From assembly GCA_040371205.1 (NCBI GenBank), contig AP031382.1, positions 1,237,562-1,301,561 of the forward strand: DNA of 64,000 nucleotides, read 5' to 3'. This document shows, one piece after another, positions 1-3,028 of this stretch. The DNA is from Rhodanobacter sp. GTDB lineage: Bacteria > Pseudomonadota > Gammaproteobacteria > Xanthomonadales > Rhodanobacteraceae. Each line of letters begins with the position of its first letter. Positions within the stretch are counted from its first letter, which is position 1. A program made the position numbers and the translations under genes. The notes beneath the pieces were generated by a model. It was given only the letters and a program-made list of their open reading frames with translations, was not told the origin of the DNA and searched no databases.

Positions 1-491
1 GTGTGCCGAACCGGCTCGCGCTGGAGGAGCGCTACGCCGGCATGTTGGCCGCGCCCGGCACGGCGCAGGCGCCGTTCTGCCTGCTGCTGCTGGACATCGA
101 CCACTTCAAGAGCGTCAACGACCGCTTCGGGCACGACTGCGGCGACAAGGCGCTGAAGGCGTTGACGCGCCGCGTGCGCGGCGTGCTGCGCGGCGGGGAC
201 ATGGTCGGCCGGCTGGGCGGCGAGGAGTTCATCGTGCTGGCGCCGGACATGCACTGGGGCGCCGGCCAGGCGCTGGCCGAACGCATCCGTGCGGCGGTGG
301 CAGGCACGCCGGTGCCGATCGACGGCTACGAGCTGCCGCTCACCGTGTCGGTGGGTGTAGCCGAGGCCGAGCCGCACGAGCGCGACATGTCCACCACGTT
401 GCGGCGCGCCGACAAGGCGCTCTATGTCGCCAAGCACGGCGGCCGCAACCGCGTGGAAGTGGCGCCGCGCTATGACGGCGGCCTGGCCTGA
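1..491 (+). CDS. Diguanylate cyclase (GGDEF domain), 3' part only
   Basis: This is the C-terminal part of a GGDEF domain, which makes c-di-GMP from two GTP. The first codons read (V)PNRLALEERY, the usual entry of the domain (TG-PNR), so the gene starts upstream of the window; the GTG at position 3 is not a credible start. LLDIDHFKSVNDRFGH (nucleotide and metal binding) and GGEEF (the signature loop, intact, so catalysis is expected) are present, as is the late KALYVAKHGGRNRV segment. There is no EAL domain after it. The sensory part is unseen, so its input is unknown. It ends 46 bases before the leader peptide of the next gene. Confidence 0.9.
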   Translation, partial: VPNRLALEERYAGMLAAPGTAQAPFCLLLLDIDHFKSVNDRFGHDCGDKALKALTRRVRGVLRGGDMVGRLGGEEFIVLAPDMHWGAGQALAERIRAAVAGTPVPIDGYELPLTVSVGVAEAEPHERDMSTTLRRADKALYVAKHGGRNRVEVAPRYDGGLA

Positions 492-537
492 GATAGGTCC
501 AGCGGTTATTTGCAGCGCACGGAACGAAGTGCTATTG

Positions 538-627
538 ATGGACGCCATGACCCACACCGCCCGCCAGTACTTTTGGTTTTATGGCTATCCGAAGCCGCTG
601 GCGGAGGCATGGGTGCGATCGTCCTGA
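538..627 (+). CDS. Aromatic leader peptide of the DAHP synthase gene
   Basis: This 29-codon ORF contains the run QYFWFYGY: codons Tyr 568-570, Phe 571-573, Trp 574-576, Phe 577-579, Tyr 580-582 and Tyr 586-588. A later Trp lies near the end, and the stop is TGA at 625-627. GGAACGAAG lies about 10 bases before the ATG as a possible ribosome site; a second ATG at 547 is in frame. An ORF so rich in all three aromatic residues, placed just before an intrinsic terminator and a gene for the first step of aromatic synthesis, is the hallmark of ribosome-mediated attenuation. The peptide itself probably has no function. The role is inferred from composition and context. Confidence 0.8.
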   Translation: MDAMTHTARQYFWFYGYPKPLAEAWVRSS

Positions 628-662
628 CGAAACACTGAAACCCCATCCCGAAAGCCGCCAGC
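597..662 (+). promoter_or_regulatory. Predicted antiterminator of the aroG attenuator
   Basis: GCTGGCGG at 597-604 is exactly complementary to CCGCCAGC at 655-662 (8 pairs). The second arm overlaps the 5' arm of the terminator at 651-659, so the two structures exclude each other. A ribosome stalled at the Tyr-Phe-Trp codons (568-582) would leave 597-604 free and allow read-through. One that reaches the stop at 625 would cover it and let the terminator form. Pairing was read by eye; no energies were computed. Confidence 0.65.
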
Positions 663-683
663 CACCCGCAAGGCGGCTTTTTT
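651..683 (+). terminator. Attenuator terminator before aroG
   Basis: AAAGCCGCC (651-659) pairs perfectly with GGCGGCTTT (672-680) across a 12-base loop, and the T run extends through 683. It lies between the leader peptide stop (627) and the aroG start (716), so it can only control aroG. The 5' arm sequence AAAGCCGCC occurs again at 707-715, overlapping the aroG ribosome site. Confidence 0.85.
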
Positions 684-715
684 CATGGCCGCCGACCCGC
701 CCGAGGAAAGCCGCC

Positions 716-1795
716 ATGTCCCACGCTGCCACCGACGACCTGCGCATCCGCAGCATCCATCCGCTCGCCACGCCCGCCGAGGTGATGGACGAGTACCCCG
801 CCACCGACGCCGTGCTGGACACCGTAGGCAACGCGCGCACGGCCTTGCACCGCATCCTGGCCGGCGCCGACGACCGCCTCGCGGTGGTGATCGGGCCGTG
901 CTCCATCCACGATCCGCGCGCGGCGCTGGACTACGCACGGCGATTGGCGGAGCAACGCGCTCGCCTCGGCGGCGAGCTGGAGATCGTGATGCGCGTGTAC
1001 TTCGAGAAGCCGCGCACCACGGTGGGCTGGAAGGGGCTGATCAACGATCCCGATCTCGACGGCAGTTTCCGCATCAACAAGGGCCTGCGCGTGGCGCGCC
1101 AACTGCTGTGCGACATCAATGCGCTGGGCATGCCGGCGGGTTGCGAGTTCCTGGACATCATTTCGCCGCAGTACCTCGCCGACCTGGTGGCCTGGGGCGC
1201 GATCGGCGCACGTACTACCGAGAGCCAGATCCATCGCGAGATGGCCTCGGGGCTGTCGTGCCCGGTAGGCTTCAAGAACGGCACCGACGGCAACGTGAAG
1301 GTGGCGGTGGACGCGGTGCAGGCGGCGTCGCATCCGCACCATTTCCTCGCCGTGACCAAGCAAGGGCAGGCCGCCATCGCCGCCACCCGCGGCAACCGCG
1401 ACTGCCATGTGATCCTGCGTGGCGGCAAGCTGCCGAACTACGACGCGGCGAGCGTGGAGTCGACCTGTGCCGCCATCGGCAAGGCCGGCTTGCCGGCGCG
1501 CGTGATGGTCGACGCCAGCCACGCCAACAGCGGCAAGAATCCCGAAAACCAGCCGCGGGTGATCGCCGACATCGCGGCGCAGATCGAGGCTGGCGAGCAC
1601 CGCATCGTGGGCGCGATGGTGGAAAGCCATCTCGTCGCGGGGCGCCAGGAGCTGGTGGACGGCCAGACGCTGACCTACGGCCAGAGCATCACCGACGGTT
1701 GCCTCGGCTGGGACGACTCGCTGCGCGTGCTGGAGCGGCTGGCCGCCGCGGTGCGGCGCCGGCGCGGGACGGCGAAGGACGAACTGGCGGCGTGA
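716..1795 (+). CDS. aroG: 3-deoxy-7-phosphoheptulonate (DAHP) synthase, class I
   Basis: It condenses phosphoenolpyruvate and erythrose 4-phosphate, the first step of the shikimate pathway. The protein has 359 residues, close to the E. coli AroF/G/H length (about 350). GPCSIHD (residues 60-66), the substrate-binding KPRTTVGWKG (98-107) and VDASHANSGKNP near the C-terminus are intact. The ATG at 716 was chosen because GAGGAAAG lies 5 bases upstream and the protein then starts like the family; the open frame extends upstream without a start context. Expression is probably set by the attenuator at 538-683, which senses Tyr, Phe and Trp charging together. Which aromatic acid inhibits the enzyme cannot be read from the sequence, so the symbol marks the family rather than the isozyme. 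Confidence 0.93.
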   Translation: MSHAATDDLRIRSIHPLATPAEVMDEYPATDAVLDTVGNARTALHRILAGADDRLAVVIGPCSIHDPRAALDYARRLAEQRARLGGELEIVMRVYFEKPRTTVGWKGLINDPDLDGSFRINKGLRVARQLLCDINALGMPAGCEFLDIISPQYLADLVAWGAIGARTTESQIHREMASGLSCPVGFKNGTDGNVKVAVDAVQAASHPHHFLAVTKQGQAAIAATRGNRDCHVILRGGKLPNYDAASVESTCAAIGKAGLPARVMVDASHANSGKNPENQPRVIADIAAQIEAGEHRIVGAMVESHLVAGRQELVDGQTLTYGQSITDGCLGWDDSLRVLERLAAAVRRRRGTAKDELAA

Positions 1796-1861
1796 GGGCG
1801 GTATCCTTGGCGCCCTGTCCAGGGAGATCGCCATGCATCACCAGTCTGCGGAGTCGCGCGC

Positions 1862-2536
1862 ATGACCGCCACCGCATCGAAGCCGCGGCGGTTCCGGCTG
1901 CTGCACTTCATCCGCGGGCGGCCGCGGCTGAGCATCTGCACGGTGGTGTTCGCGCTGACTACCGCGGTGCTGCTCATGATGCGCATGCGCATGGCATCGG
2001 CGGTGCTGCTGGGCTTCGATCTCGGCGCGCTGCTGTACCTCATAACGCTGGCGCGGATGTTCTCGCGTTCCGGCTGCGAGCACATCGGTCGTCAGGCCAA
2101 GCTGCAGGACACCGGGCGGCGCGCCACGCTGGCGGTGGCGGTGATTGTCTCGCTGGTGGTGCTGGTGGCGCTGACCACCGAGCTGCACGCAGGCAAGGCC
2201 GGCGGTGCCTCGGCGGTGGGCCTCGCCGCGCTCAGCGTGGTGCTGTCGTGGCTGTTCATGAACACCACCTTCGCGCTGCACTATGCGCACGGCTACTACG
2301 GCGACGACGGCCACCTGCAAGGCGGCCTGGATTTCCCCTCCACGCCCAAGCCGGACTACTGGGATTTCGTGTACTACTCGTTCGTGATCGGCATGTGCTT
2401 CCAGGTCTCGGACGTATCCGTGCGCAGCCGTCCGATGCGCCGGCTCACGCTGTTGCACAGCGTGGTGGCGTTCTTCTTCAACGTGTTCATCCTGGCGATC
2501 AGCGTGAGCGTTGTGGGCAGCCTCGGCGGCGGCTGA
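1862..2536 (+). CDS. DUF1345 family inner-membrane protein
   Basis: The 224-residue protein has a basic N-terminus followed by about five hydrophobic segments (roughly residues 23-45, 48-66, 85-107, 117-140 and 195-218). The conserved DYWDFVYYSFVIGMCFQVSD segment of DUF1345 lies before the last helix. The family is widespread in proteobacteria but has no established function. It follows aroG by 66 bases with no terminator seen, so co-transcription is possible. It is convergent with yajQ, 9 bases apart. Confidence 0.85.
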   Translation: MTATASKPRRFRLLHFIRGRPRLSICTVVFALTTAVLLMMRMRMASAVLLGFDLGALLYLITLARMFSRSGCEHIGRQAKLQDTGRRATLAVAVIVSLVVLVALTTELHAGKAGGASAVGLAALSVVLSWLFMNTTFALHYAHGYYGDDGHLQGGLDFPSTPKPDYWDFVYYSFVIGMCFQVSDVSVRSRPMRRLTLLHSVVAFFFNVFILAISVSVVGSLGGG

Positions 2537-2545
2537 GCCGGCGCC

Positions 2546-3028
2546 TCAGTCGCGCAGGTTGTCGAACTGCAGCGGCAGCTCCACGTCGGCCTTGCGCAGC
2601 ACCGCCATCGCGTCCTGCAGGTCGTCGCGCTTCTTGCCGGTGACGCGCAGCTTGTCGCCGTTGATCTGCGCCTCGACCTTGAGCTTGGCTTCCTTCAGCG
2701 CGGCCACCAGCTTCTTCGCCACCGGCTGCTCGATGCCCTGCTTCACGGTGATCTTCTGGCGCGCGCCGGCGAGGTTGGTCTCCACCTCGCCGATGTCCAG
2801 CGCGCGGATGTCGATCTTCCGCGTGACGAGCCGGCCGCGCAGGATGTCCAGCATCTGCTGCAGCTGGAAATCGCTGGGCGCGGTGAGCAGGATCTCGGAC
2901 TTCTCCAGCGCGAACTTCGCGTCCGAACCCTTGAAGTCGAAGCGGTTCGCCAGCTCGCGGTTGGCCTGGTCCACGGCATTGGTGAGTTCGTGCTTGTCGA
3001 CTTCGGAGATCACGTCGAAGGAGGGCAT
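2546..3028 (-). CDS. yajQ: YajQ family nucleotide-binding protein
   Basis: The 160-residue protein begins MPSFDVISEVDKHELTNAVD and ends LPLQFDNLRD, both diagnostic of the YajQ (DUF520) family of two ferredoxin-like domains. In Xanthomonas a member of this family binds c-di-GMP and acts with a transcription factor; binding here is inferred from the family. The ATG at 3028 gives the standard family length. The reading frame continues far upstream only because of high GC content. A partial GGDEF protein at the start of the window offers a loose c-di-GMP context but no operon link. Confidence 0.93.
   Translation of the reverse strand: MPSFDVISEVDKHELTNAVDQANRELANRFDFKGSDAKFALEKSEILLTAPSDFQLQQMLDILRGRLVTRKIDIRALDIGEVETNLAGARQKITVKQGIEQPVAKKLVAALKEAKLKVEAQINGDKLRVTGKKRDDLQDAMAVLRKADVELPLQFDNLRD

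Follow-up and report, generated by a model that had tools for sequence, protein, structure and literature searches.

A conserved leader with tyrosine, phenylalanine and tryptophan codons and attenuator anatomy precedes the DAHP synthase gene aroG in Xanthomonadales and other Proteobacteria

Introduction

DAHP synthase, which catalyses the first step towards the aromatic amino acids, controls entry into the shikimate pathway, and the upstream region of one of its genes in Rhodanobacter sp. raises the question of whether a single RNA leader can adjust this entry point to the supply of tyrosine, phenylalanine and tryptophan together. The gene, aroG, lies in the window, by which we mean the whole 64,000-nucleotide stretch of contig AP031382.1 (assembly GCA_040371205.1, positions 1,237,562 to 1,301,561) that was analysed. 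A preliminary description of this stretch had proposed that a complete aromatic amino acid attenuator stands before aroG. Here we examine the anatomy of the leader, its conservation, the coevolution of its arms and its predicted response to stalled ribosomes, and weigh the explanations that compete with attenuation.

Results

The aroG locus

The gene encodes a type I DAHP synthase (Table 1) that scored far above the cut-off of the TIGR00034 aroFGH model and has a relative of solved structure in the PDB (5cks, E 3.4e-145); its closest named AroG relatives are from Dyella, Rhodanobacter, Pseudoxanthomonas and Stenotrophomonas. Because the protein just missed the AroG equivalog model (550.8 bits, cut-off 568) and passed the cut-off of an AroH-named subfamily model, the name aroG is a convenience and the isozyme is not settled. 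On the same strand a GGDEF-domain gene stops at 491, 5' of the leader and aroG, and between the two genes come, in this order, a weak sigma-70-like promoter, the leader ORF, a terminator and the aroG Shine-Dalgarno sequence. A DUF1345 gene (1862-2536, same strand) follows aroG on its 3' side. A strict consensus scan of positions 440-740 returned no promoter, because the proposed one is weak and non-consensus, and no terminator, because the 12-nt loop exceeds the 3-8 nt limit of that scan.

Table 1. Features of the aroG leader region, in window coordinates
Feature	Position	Strand	Basis
-35 element TTGCAG	510-515	+	proposed from conservation profile; family T at -36 in 64/71
Extended -10 element TGcTATTGA, 17 nt from -35	530-538	+	proposed from conservation profile; many relatives have TGTTATCAC
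Putative transcription start, A of leader ATG (leaderless)	547	+	8 nt from -10 to A; C at -1; no Shine-Dalgarno
Leader peptide ORF, MTHTARQYFWFYGYPKPLAEAWVRSS followed by stop	547-627	+	direct reading and family conservation
Arm 1, CCGCCAGT, partner of arm 2	561-568	+	folding; better than shuffles, without covariation
Control codons TAC TTT TGG TTT TAT (Tyr Phe Trp Phe Tyr)	568-582	+	family conservation and stall scan
Arm 2, GCTGGCGG, 5' side of antiterminator, within leader ORF	597-604	+	direct reading, coevolution, folding
Arm 2b, GGcATGGG, 5' side of inner antiterminator helix, partner 642-649	606-613	+	folding; whole inner segment coevolves
Apical hairpin TCGT/ACGA around leader stop codon	619-630	+	folding
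Arm 3b, CCCATcCC, partner of arm 2b	642-649	+	folding
Intrinsic terminator, 651-659 with 672-680, T-run 678-683	651-683	+	pair conservation, compensatory changes, coevolving arms
Arm 3, CCGCCAGC, antiterminator; overlaps terminator 5' arm 651-659	655-662	+	direct reading, coevolution, folding
Conserved post-terminator GGCCGCC ('arm 5'), complementary to arm 4	687-693	+	family motif count
aroG Shine-Dalgarno GAGGA	703-707	+	direct reading; outside terminator; family anti-Shine-Dalgarno energies agree
aroG, type I DAHP synthase, 359 aa	716-1795	+	PF00793, E 1.4e-94

Leader ORF and proposed transcription start

A 29-codon leader containing QYFWFYGY had been described. The ORF that opens at ATG 538 does have 29 codons, includes this motif and ends at TGA 625-627, but the start had to be moved: ATG 538 is unconserved and lies inside the -10 region, whereas ATG 547, which gives 26 codons, is the conserved start in the family (Rhodanobacteraceae). 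The majority pattern of the 71 family leaders is R-x-Y-F-W-F-Y-G-Y-P-x-P-x-A-E-x-x-A-R-S, and phenylalanine, tyrosine and tryptophan are all present in every one of them. Across the 135 leaders collected in total, all three occur in 122 and tryptophan is absent in 13; the aromatic residues come in 54 distinct orders, their content being largely retained.

Upstream of the conserved ATG, family members carry a -10 element of the type TG-TATC-A and, in 65/71, a C at -1; the hexamer of the proposed window promoter occupies 533-538. No leader (0/71) had an anti-Shine-Dalgarno energy below -4 kcal/mol, compared with 68/71 aroG starts, and mean energies were -0.70 for leaders, -3.31 (stronger) for random upstream 17-mers and -6.65 for aroG starts. 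From the promoter spacing, the C at -1 and the absent Shine-Dalgarno sequence, we infer that transcription starts at the leader AUG; the leader transcript probably begins at or next to its own AUG and would be leaderless. By eye, Oxalobacteraceae and Burkholderia-type leaders (L140, L147, L142, L149) have a likely -10 about 25-45 nt before the ATG and do not look leaderless, unlike those of Xanthomonadales and Bradyrhizobium.

Codon choice in the leaders departs from that of the gene they precede. Phenylalanine is written TTT 121 times and TTC 38 times in the 71 leaders, against 17 TTT and 141 TTC in 30 aroG genes, and CGA makes up 61 of 173 arginine codons in leaders but 20 of 867 in aroG genes. 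The preference for TTT, set against roughly 8:1 for TTC in aroG, may slow decoding or leave the stall region free of structure.

Alternative hairpins

Both pairings in the preliminary description are exact on direct reading. The antiterminator joins GCTGGCGG (597-604) to CCGCCAGC (655-662) through 8 pairs, and the terminator joins AAAGCCGCC (651-659) to GGCGGCTTT (672-680) through 9 pairs and is followed by a T-run. Folding of 538-715 gave the terminator plus a 5' hairpin, 561-568/597-604, with a minimum free energy of -63.9 kcal/mol (z -1.90; 9/200 shuffles equally good). In the folded window arms 1 and 3 compete for arm 2, and arm 3 is common to antiterminator and terminator, in agreement with the mutual exclusion that had been claimed; arm 1 (561-568), the rival for arm 2, had escaped notice. 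Positions 591-599, which resemble arm 3, can also pair with terminator arm 4 at 672-680 (9 pairs).

Behind the terminator, a motif of the arm 5 type (GGYYGC, at most 20 nt after the T-run) occurs in 59/71 family leaders and 5/64 others. Its pairing with terminator arm 4 had a shuffle z of -2.15 in 30 Xanthomonadales representatives and -1.35 in all 53 representatives. Arm 5 is present only in read-through RNA and therefore should not decide termination.

Conservation in the family and the order

Of the 147 genomes in the family sample, 72 hold a single full-length orthologue of aroG. Three weak rows, G097, G098 and G119, were excluded because their matches are not of aroG length, and the upstream DNA of all 72 orthologues was examined. 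The leader was found in 71/72, the exception being L020, where it is gone and which therefore stands outside the leader statistics. When the 300 nt in front of aroG were scanned for an ORF holding 5 or more aromatic residues in a stretch of 8 codons, 70/72 orthologues and 2/1440 shuffles had one. Every one of the 71 leaders has the T-run, whose end lies 50-64 nt past the first nucleotide of the leader's stop codon, and the distance from the leader ATG to the end of the T-run is 128-142 nt throughout. In the consensus terminator helix the 5 core pairs are invariant in 71/71, the outer 3 pairs are broken in 0-3 sequences, and 2 pairs are maintained by two-sided changes, in 10 and 13 sequences.

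A covariance model extended the survey to 398 genomes of the order and matched 180 of them at E <= 0.01, many weakly. AroG (E <= 1e-60) is encoded in 142 of the 398, as a single copy in each, and 141 of these 142 aroG genes have a strong leader and terminator match (E <= 3.1e-12) on the same strand 28-143 nt upstream, a count for which the sequence was inspected in about 69 family genomes and 15 others and which otherwise rests on the covariance model. Among the 398 genomes, those lacking aroG gave no strong leader match. The preliminary description had staked its case on the recurrence of the aromatic codons and of both hairpins in close relatives; they recur in 71/72 family orthologues and 141/142 in the order, and the proposed attenuator anatomy before a DAHP synthase gene is upheld.

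Coevolution of the arms

For tests on the arms, the 135 collected leaders were reduced to 127 usable ones, the other 8 lacking the GGCGG/CCGCC pattern, and then to 53 dissimilar representatives; p-values assume that representatives are independent, which they are only in part. Two-way swaps of own against foreign arms favoured own arms in the terminator (-2.36 kcal/mol, 50/53, p 4.7e-9), the antiterminator core (-1.06 kcal/mol, 38/53, p 2.6e-4) and the inner segment (-1.38 kcal/mol, 36/53, p 3.9e-4). Within Xanthomonadales alone the coevolution of arm 2 with arm 3 was not significant (p 0.12), and in a simpler swap test own inner halves ranked in the best 10% for just 3/53. Pairing of arm 1 with arm 2 beats shuffles (p 1.3e-5), and no covariation between these two arms was detected (p 0.17).

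The RNA that links arms 2 and 3 is more stably folded than its shuffles, with a mean z of -0.95 in the 127 leaders (below -1 in 67) and of -0.94 in the 53 representatives (below 0 in 44). RNAalifold on the arm 2-arm 3 alignment, with 64 distinct family sequences of the 69 used, recovered only the invariant GGCGG/CCGCC core, and with 15 distinct f2/f4-group sequences it recovered the core, some inner pairs and the stop-codon hairpin. Swap and shuffle tests were used in its place because the linker aligns poorly.

As arm 2 lies within the leader ORF, its codons could be compared with synonymous recodings. Pairing with arm 3 was above the median of the recodings in 52/53 and 51/53 representatives in two tests, and outdid 95% of them in 12/53. 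Part of this effect is base composition, since a reversed arm 3 also shows some (z -0.90, against -1.53 for the true arm 3); the codon bias nevertheless exceeds this control in 39/53 (p 4.6e-5).

Folding with a stalled ribosome

The consequences of stalling were modelled by moving the A site of a ribosome along the window leader in a folding model without arm 4. The probability of the antiterminator, P(2:3), was 1.00 for codons 2-12, 0.97 for codon 13 and 0 for codons 14-24, then 0.14, 0.98 and 0.97 for codons 25, 26 and 27. The YFWFY codons (8-12) form the downstream edge of the stall-permissive stretch, and an extra tyrosine codon at 586-588 (codon 14) falls outside it; in the model, stalls ahead of the aromatic codons are equally permissive. 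In 35/69 family leaders scanned in this way, mean P(2:3) fell from 0.82 at the Trp codon to 0.67 two codons and 0.18 four codons further on. The core of arm 2 begins a median of 14 nt (range 11-33) past the first nucleotide of the cluster's final aromatic codon; about 14 nt from the stalled codon is roughly where the leading edge of a ribosome lies.

In the model, two things block arm 2: pairing with arm 1, or a ribosome whose A site holds one of codons 14-24. Stalls up to codon 13 free the antiterminator there and positions 14-24 do not, but, contrary to the preliminary description, the antiterminator arm is left uncovered by a ribosome that has reached the stop codon: when its A site is at stop codon 625, the model footprint is 607-637, arm 2 (597-604) is free and P(2:3) is 0.97, so that the stop state is permissive again. 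A ribosome at the leader start also permits the antiterminator (1.00 in the window, mean 0.72), and with no ribosome 2:3 reaches 0.36 against 0.64 for the upstream pairing in the window (means 0.37 and 0.53). Because the start and stop states allow the antiterminator, and the no-ribosome state does so in part, the off-state is poorly captured by the model.

When arm 4 is present, the terminator is the favoured equilibrium structure in most states, and mean P(3:4) over 53 representatives is 0.88 even with a mid-cluster stall. In the window itself, a mid-stall on the full leader gave neither 2:3 nor 3:4; the helix 591-599/672-680 wins, which would also block the terminator. Since equilibrium favours the terminator once arm 4 has been made, the choice would have to fall during transcription, as in known attenuators.

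Spread beyond the order and gene copy number

Leaders similar to that of the window stand before aroG in many Burkholderiales and several Alphaproteobacteria. A scan for ORFs holding 5 or more aromatics per 8 codons in the upstream 300 nt was positive in 49 of 80 named loci, against 17/1600 shuffles and 0/80 3' flanks of the same loci. Gamma- and Betaproteobacteria among those reaching the threshold bear the names Xanthomonas, Stenotrophomonas, Burkholderia, Caballeronia, Cupriavidus, Massilia, Rugamonas, Polaromonas and Variovorax, and Bradyrhizobium, Devosia, Leisingera and Methylosinus reach it as well. None of five Enterobacterales loci (Serratia, Pantoea, Citrobacter, Dickeya) did, in a sample of one locus per genome that leaves other isozymes aside, and none did among the Thauera, Azoarcus, Methylotenera, Chitinimonas and Polynucleobacter loci, again one per genome. 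By eye, the threshold misses at least 4 likely true leaders (L158, L173, L190, L243). In a search of the phylum, 21/23 of the best-scoring loci outside the order, among the matches listed, reached the threshold, as did 8/20 of further loci chosen to cover other families (L242-L261).

On an AroG tree of 81 rows, built by a quick method, the leader label changes 11 times, against a mean of 25 when shuffled (0/500 as low). The leader therefore follows aroG clades, a pattern compatible with one origin or several. It is attractive to suppose that a single aroG copy calls for a three-way leader, and in family f19 of the phylum search, where 14/16 matching genomes have three aroG matches, the single upstream region inspected (L248) held no leader. 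The rule is not strict, because families f16 and f29 often have two aroG matches and show leaders nonetheless.

The genome from which the window comes additionally encodes a type II DAHP synthase, a second PF00793 gene and one TrpR-family protein, and it gave no match to a TyrR-type HTH. No short ORF with at least 4 aromatics in 8 codons was found in the 700 nt preceding the domain match of its trpE, a trpE-like gene, pheA or the second PF00793 gene, a check that may fall short of the true start of pheA or the second PF00793 gene and is blind to an ordinary Trp-only leader. Upstream of the type II DAHP synthase match (L075), a short ORF has 4 aromatics in 8 codons, which may be chance or a piece of another gene. 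A second, weak match of the RNA model in this genome (E 0.0077) was set aside, as it looks like an ordinary terminator behind another gene.

Discussion

Proposed mechanism

Three of the elements by which leader-peptide attenuators are recognised are found at this locus: a short upstream ORF in which codons for the amino acids made by the pathway are clustered, an intrinsic terminator between this ORF and the gene, and an antiterminator that excludes the terminator through the common arm 3. We conclude that aroG is very probably controlled by ribosome-mediated transcription attenuation, and judge the chance that all three aromatic amino acids are sensed, as the codon content suggests, to be a little better than even.

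In the mechanism we propose, the first ribosome would probably load on the 5'-terminal AUG at 547. If charged tRNA-Tyr, -Phe or -Trp were short, it would stall at 568-582, covering arm 1 and leaving arm 2 free to pair with arm 3 as this emerges; the inner helix 606-613/642-649 and the stop-codon hairpin would lengthen the antiterminator, and with the antiterminator formed the terminator would be absent and aroG transcribed. If all three were plentiful, the ribosome would be moving across arm 2 during the synthesis of arms 3 and 4, arm 1 could capture arm 2 behind it, and the terminator 651-659/672-680 would form and end transcription before aroG. In the cell, arm 2 may already be paired with arm 1 by the time a ribosome arrives at the stop codon; alternatively, that ribosome may disturb the inner helix and the stop-codon hairpin, which it overlaps.

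Relation to known attenuators

The attenuation principle is long known, and what distinguishes the present leaders is their breadth in Proteobacteria and their three-way codon content. The trpL, pheL, hisL and ilvL attenuators of E. coli share with the window the four-arm logic (1:2, 2:3, 3:4) and the control codons, and ilv leaders read several amino acids too; the window leader differs from them in having arm 2 inside the leader ORF and no Shine-Dalgarno sequence. Rhizobial trpL likewise has its leader ORF at the 5' end of the transcript in a proteobacterium, but carries Trp codons and precedes trpE(G). In C. glutamicum, the aroR transcript is leaderless. Its Phe-Tyr-Phe leader is described as an attenuator before the DAHP synthase gene aroF (Neshat et al. 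2014, as excerpted in PMC11802643 and PMC4046766), and the relevant passage of a review has it respond to Phe limitation and not to Tyr availability (PMC11802643). As far as these excerpts go, aroR-aroF is the closest precedent, since in both cases a leader-peptide attenuator with several aromatic codons together precedes a DAHP synthase gene; it differs in belonging to an Actinobacterium and in having no Trp in the reported motif, and the likeness is one of description, with no homology claimed.

Other reports touch on parts of this arrangement. In the excerpts consulted, the Acholeplasma uORFC-13-1 motif is a predicted uORF with one or more Phe codons and a terminator upstream of aroF; like the window it places both before a DAHP synthase gene, and unlike it occurs in Acholeplasma and environmental sequences, has a ribosome binding site and names Phe alone (PMC8632094). 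For Shewanella, the available text of PMC2659441 predicts 5' elements at aroF and aroH, attributes that of aroF to tyr-tRNA and cites Camakaris 1980 on E. coli aroF-tyrA; it thereby proposes that DAHP synthase genes of Gammaproteobacteria are controlled by attenuation or termination, but in that text describes no three-aromatic leader. A study of transcription-factor regulons in Proteobacteria reports, in the portion available, attenuation of trpEDCBA and pheA in E. coli and other gammaproteobacteria, and describes no aroG leader there (PMC5343134). The literature searched, as far as its text was available (including PMC2965389, PMC5343134, PMC3766115 and PMC1262725), yielded no three-aromatic leader before aroG in Proteobacteria, though an earlier description may exist, for example in Vitreschak et al. 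2004 or Neshat et al. 2014. Rfam gave two matches far under threshold in window positions 1-3000, both to unrelated families, and seven on 20 related loci, all under threshold; the sole match at a leader was Phe_leader on L168 (39.9 bits, cut-off 55), and nothing in these sequences attained the gathering score of Phe_leader or Trp_leader.

Alternative explanations

The alternative that deserves most weight is a narrower version of the same mechanism, in which the attenuator effectively senses one or two amino acids, such as Phe and Tyr, and the Trp codon is passive. We regard it as a serious possibility, though well short of even: the excerpted account of aroR, whose Phe-Tyr-Phe motif answers to Phe and not to Tyr (PMC11802643), offers a parallel, 13 of the 135 leaders do without Trp, and which codon dominates depends on the tRNA pools of the host. 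Against this, Trp is retained in 71/71 family leaders and 122/135 overall, and the first Trp codon lies on average in the permissive stretch (mean P 0.82, 35 family leaders), even though the aromatic order is free. A leader acting as a TnaC-like arrest peptide, whose nascent chain halts the ribosome when a free aromatic amino acid binds to it, would account for the conserved C-terminal half PxPxAExxARS in the family, but we consider it improbable, as the aromatic order varies, the C-terminus differs among groups, the codons of arm 2 are biased towards pairing with arm 3, and the excess of CGA in leaders (61/173) over aroG (20/867) indicates a constraint at the RNA level.

Slightly less probable still is control of aroG translation through masking of its Shine-Dalgarno sequence in place of control of transcription. 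The leader does lie directly 5' of aroG, with arm 5 (687-693) between terminator and Shine-Dalgarno sequence, but a T-run stands behind the hairpin in 71/71 leaders and the Shine-Dalgarno sequence at 703-707 is outside both alternative hairpins. That the hairpin is merely the terminator of the GGDEF gene, which ends at 491 on the same strand, next to an ORF arisen by chance, is refuted by conservation: the leader precedes aroG in 141/142 genomes, and its aromatic density occurs in 2/1440 shuffles and in 0/80 3' flanks of the named loci. Transcription attenuation by a stalled ribosome is the reading we retain.

Implications

The leader would be a compact sensor for aromatic amino acid supply, and should it read each of the three end products, a single RNA of 137 nt would combine three demands. 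In a wider picture, to which we give an even chance, these leaders would form an 'any-aromatic' attenuator family across Proteobacteria, in which a leaderless leader acts as an OR gate over tRNA-Tyr, -Phe and -Trp, gives a type I DAHP synthase the joint control for which enterobacteria use three isozymes plus TyrR and TrpR, and follows the aroG clades of Xanthomonadales, of many Burkholderiales and of several Alphaproteobacteria. Since the antiterminator spans the leader stop codon, translation termination itself would, in such an OR gate, be part of the switch. The family looks large, and no Rfam model reaches threshold on the members examined. Isozymes with repressors on the one hand and a single gene with a multi-codon leader on the other make a natural comparison.

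A last observation concerns L020 (genome G136), the sole aroG among the 142 in the order without a strong leader match. Its upstream region is rearranged and both leader and terminator are gone, yet by eye a stretch resembling the post-terminator sequence is left, and the locus is perhaps a natural loss of the attenuator.
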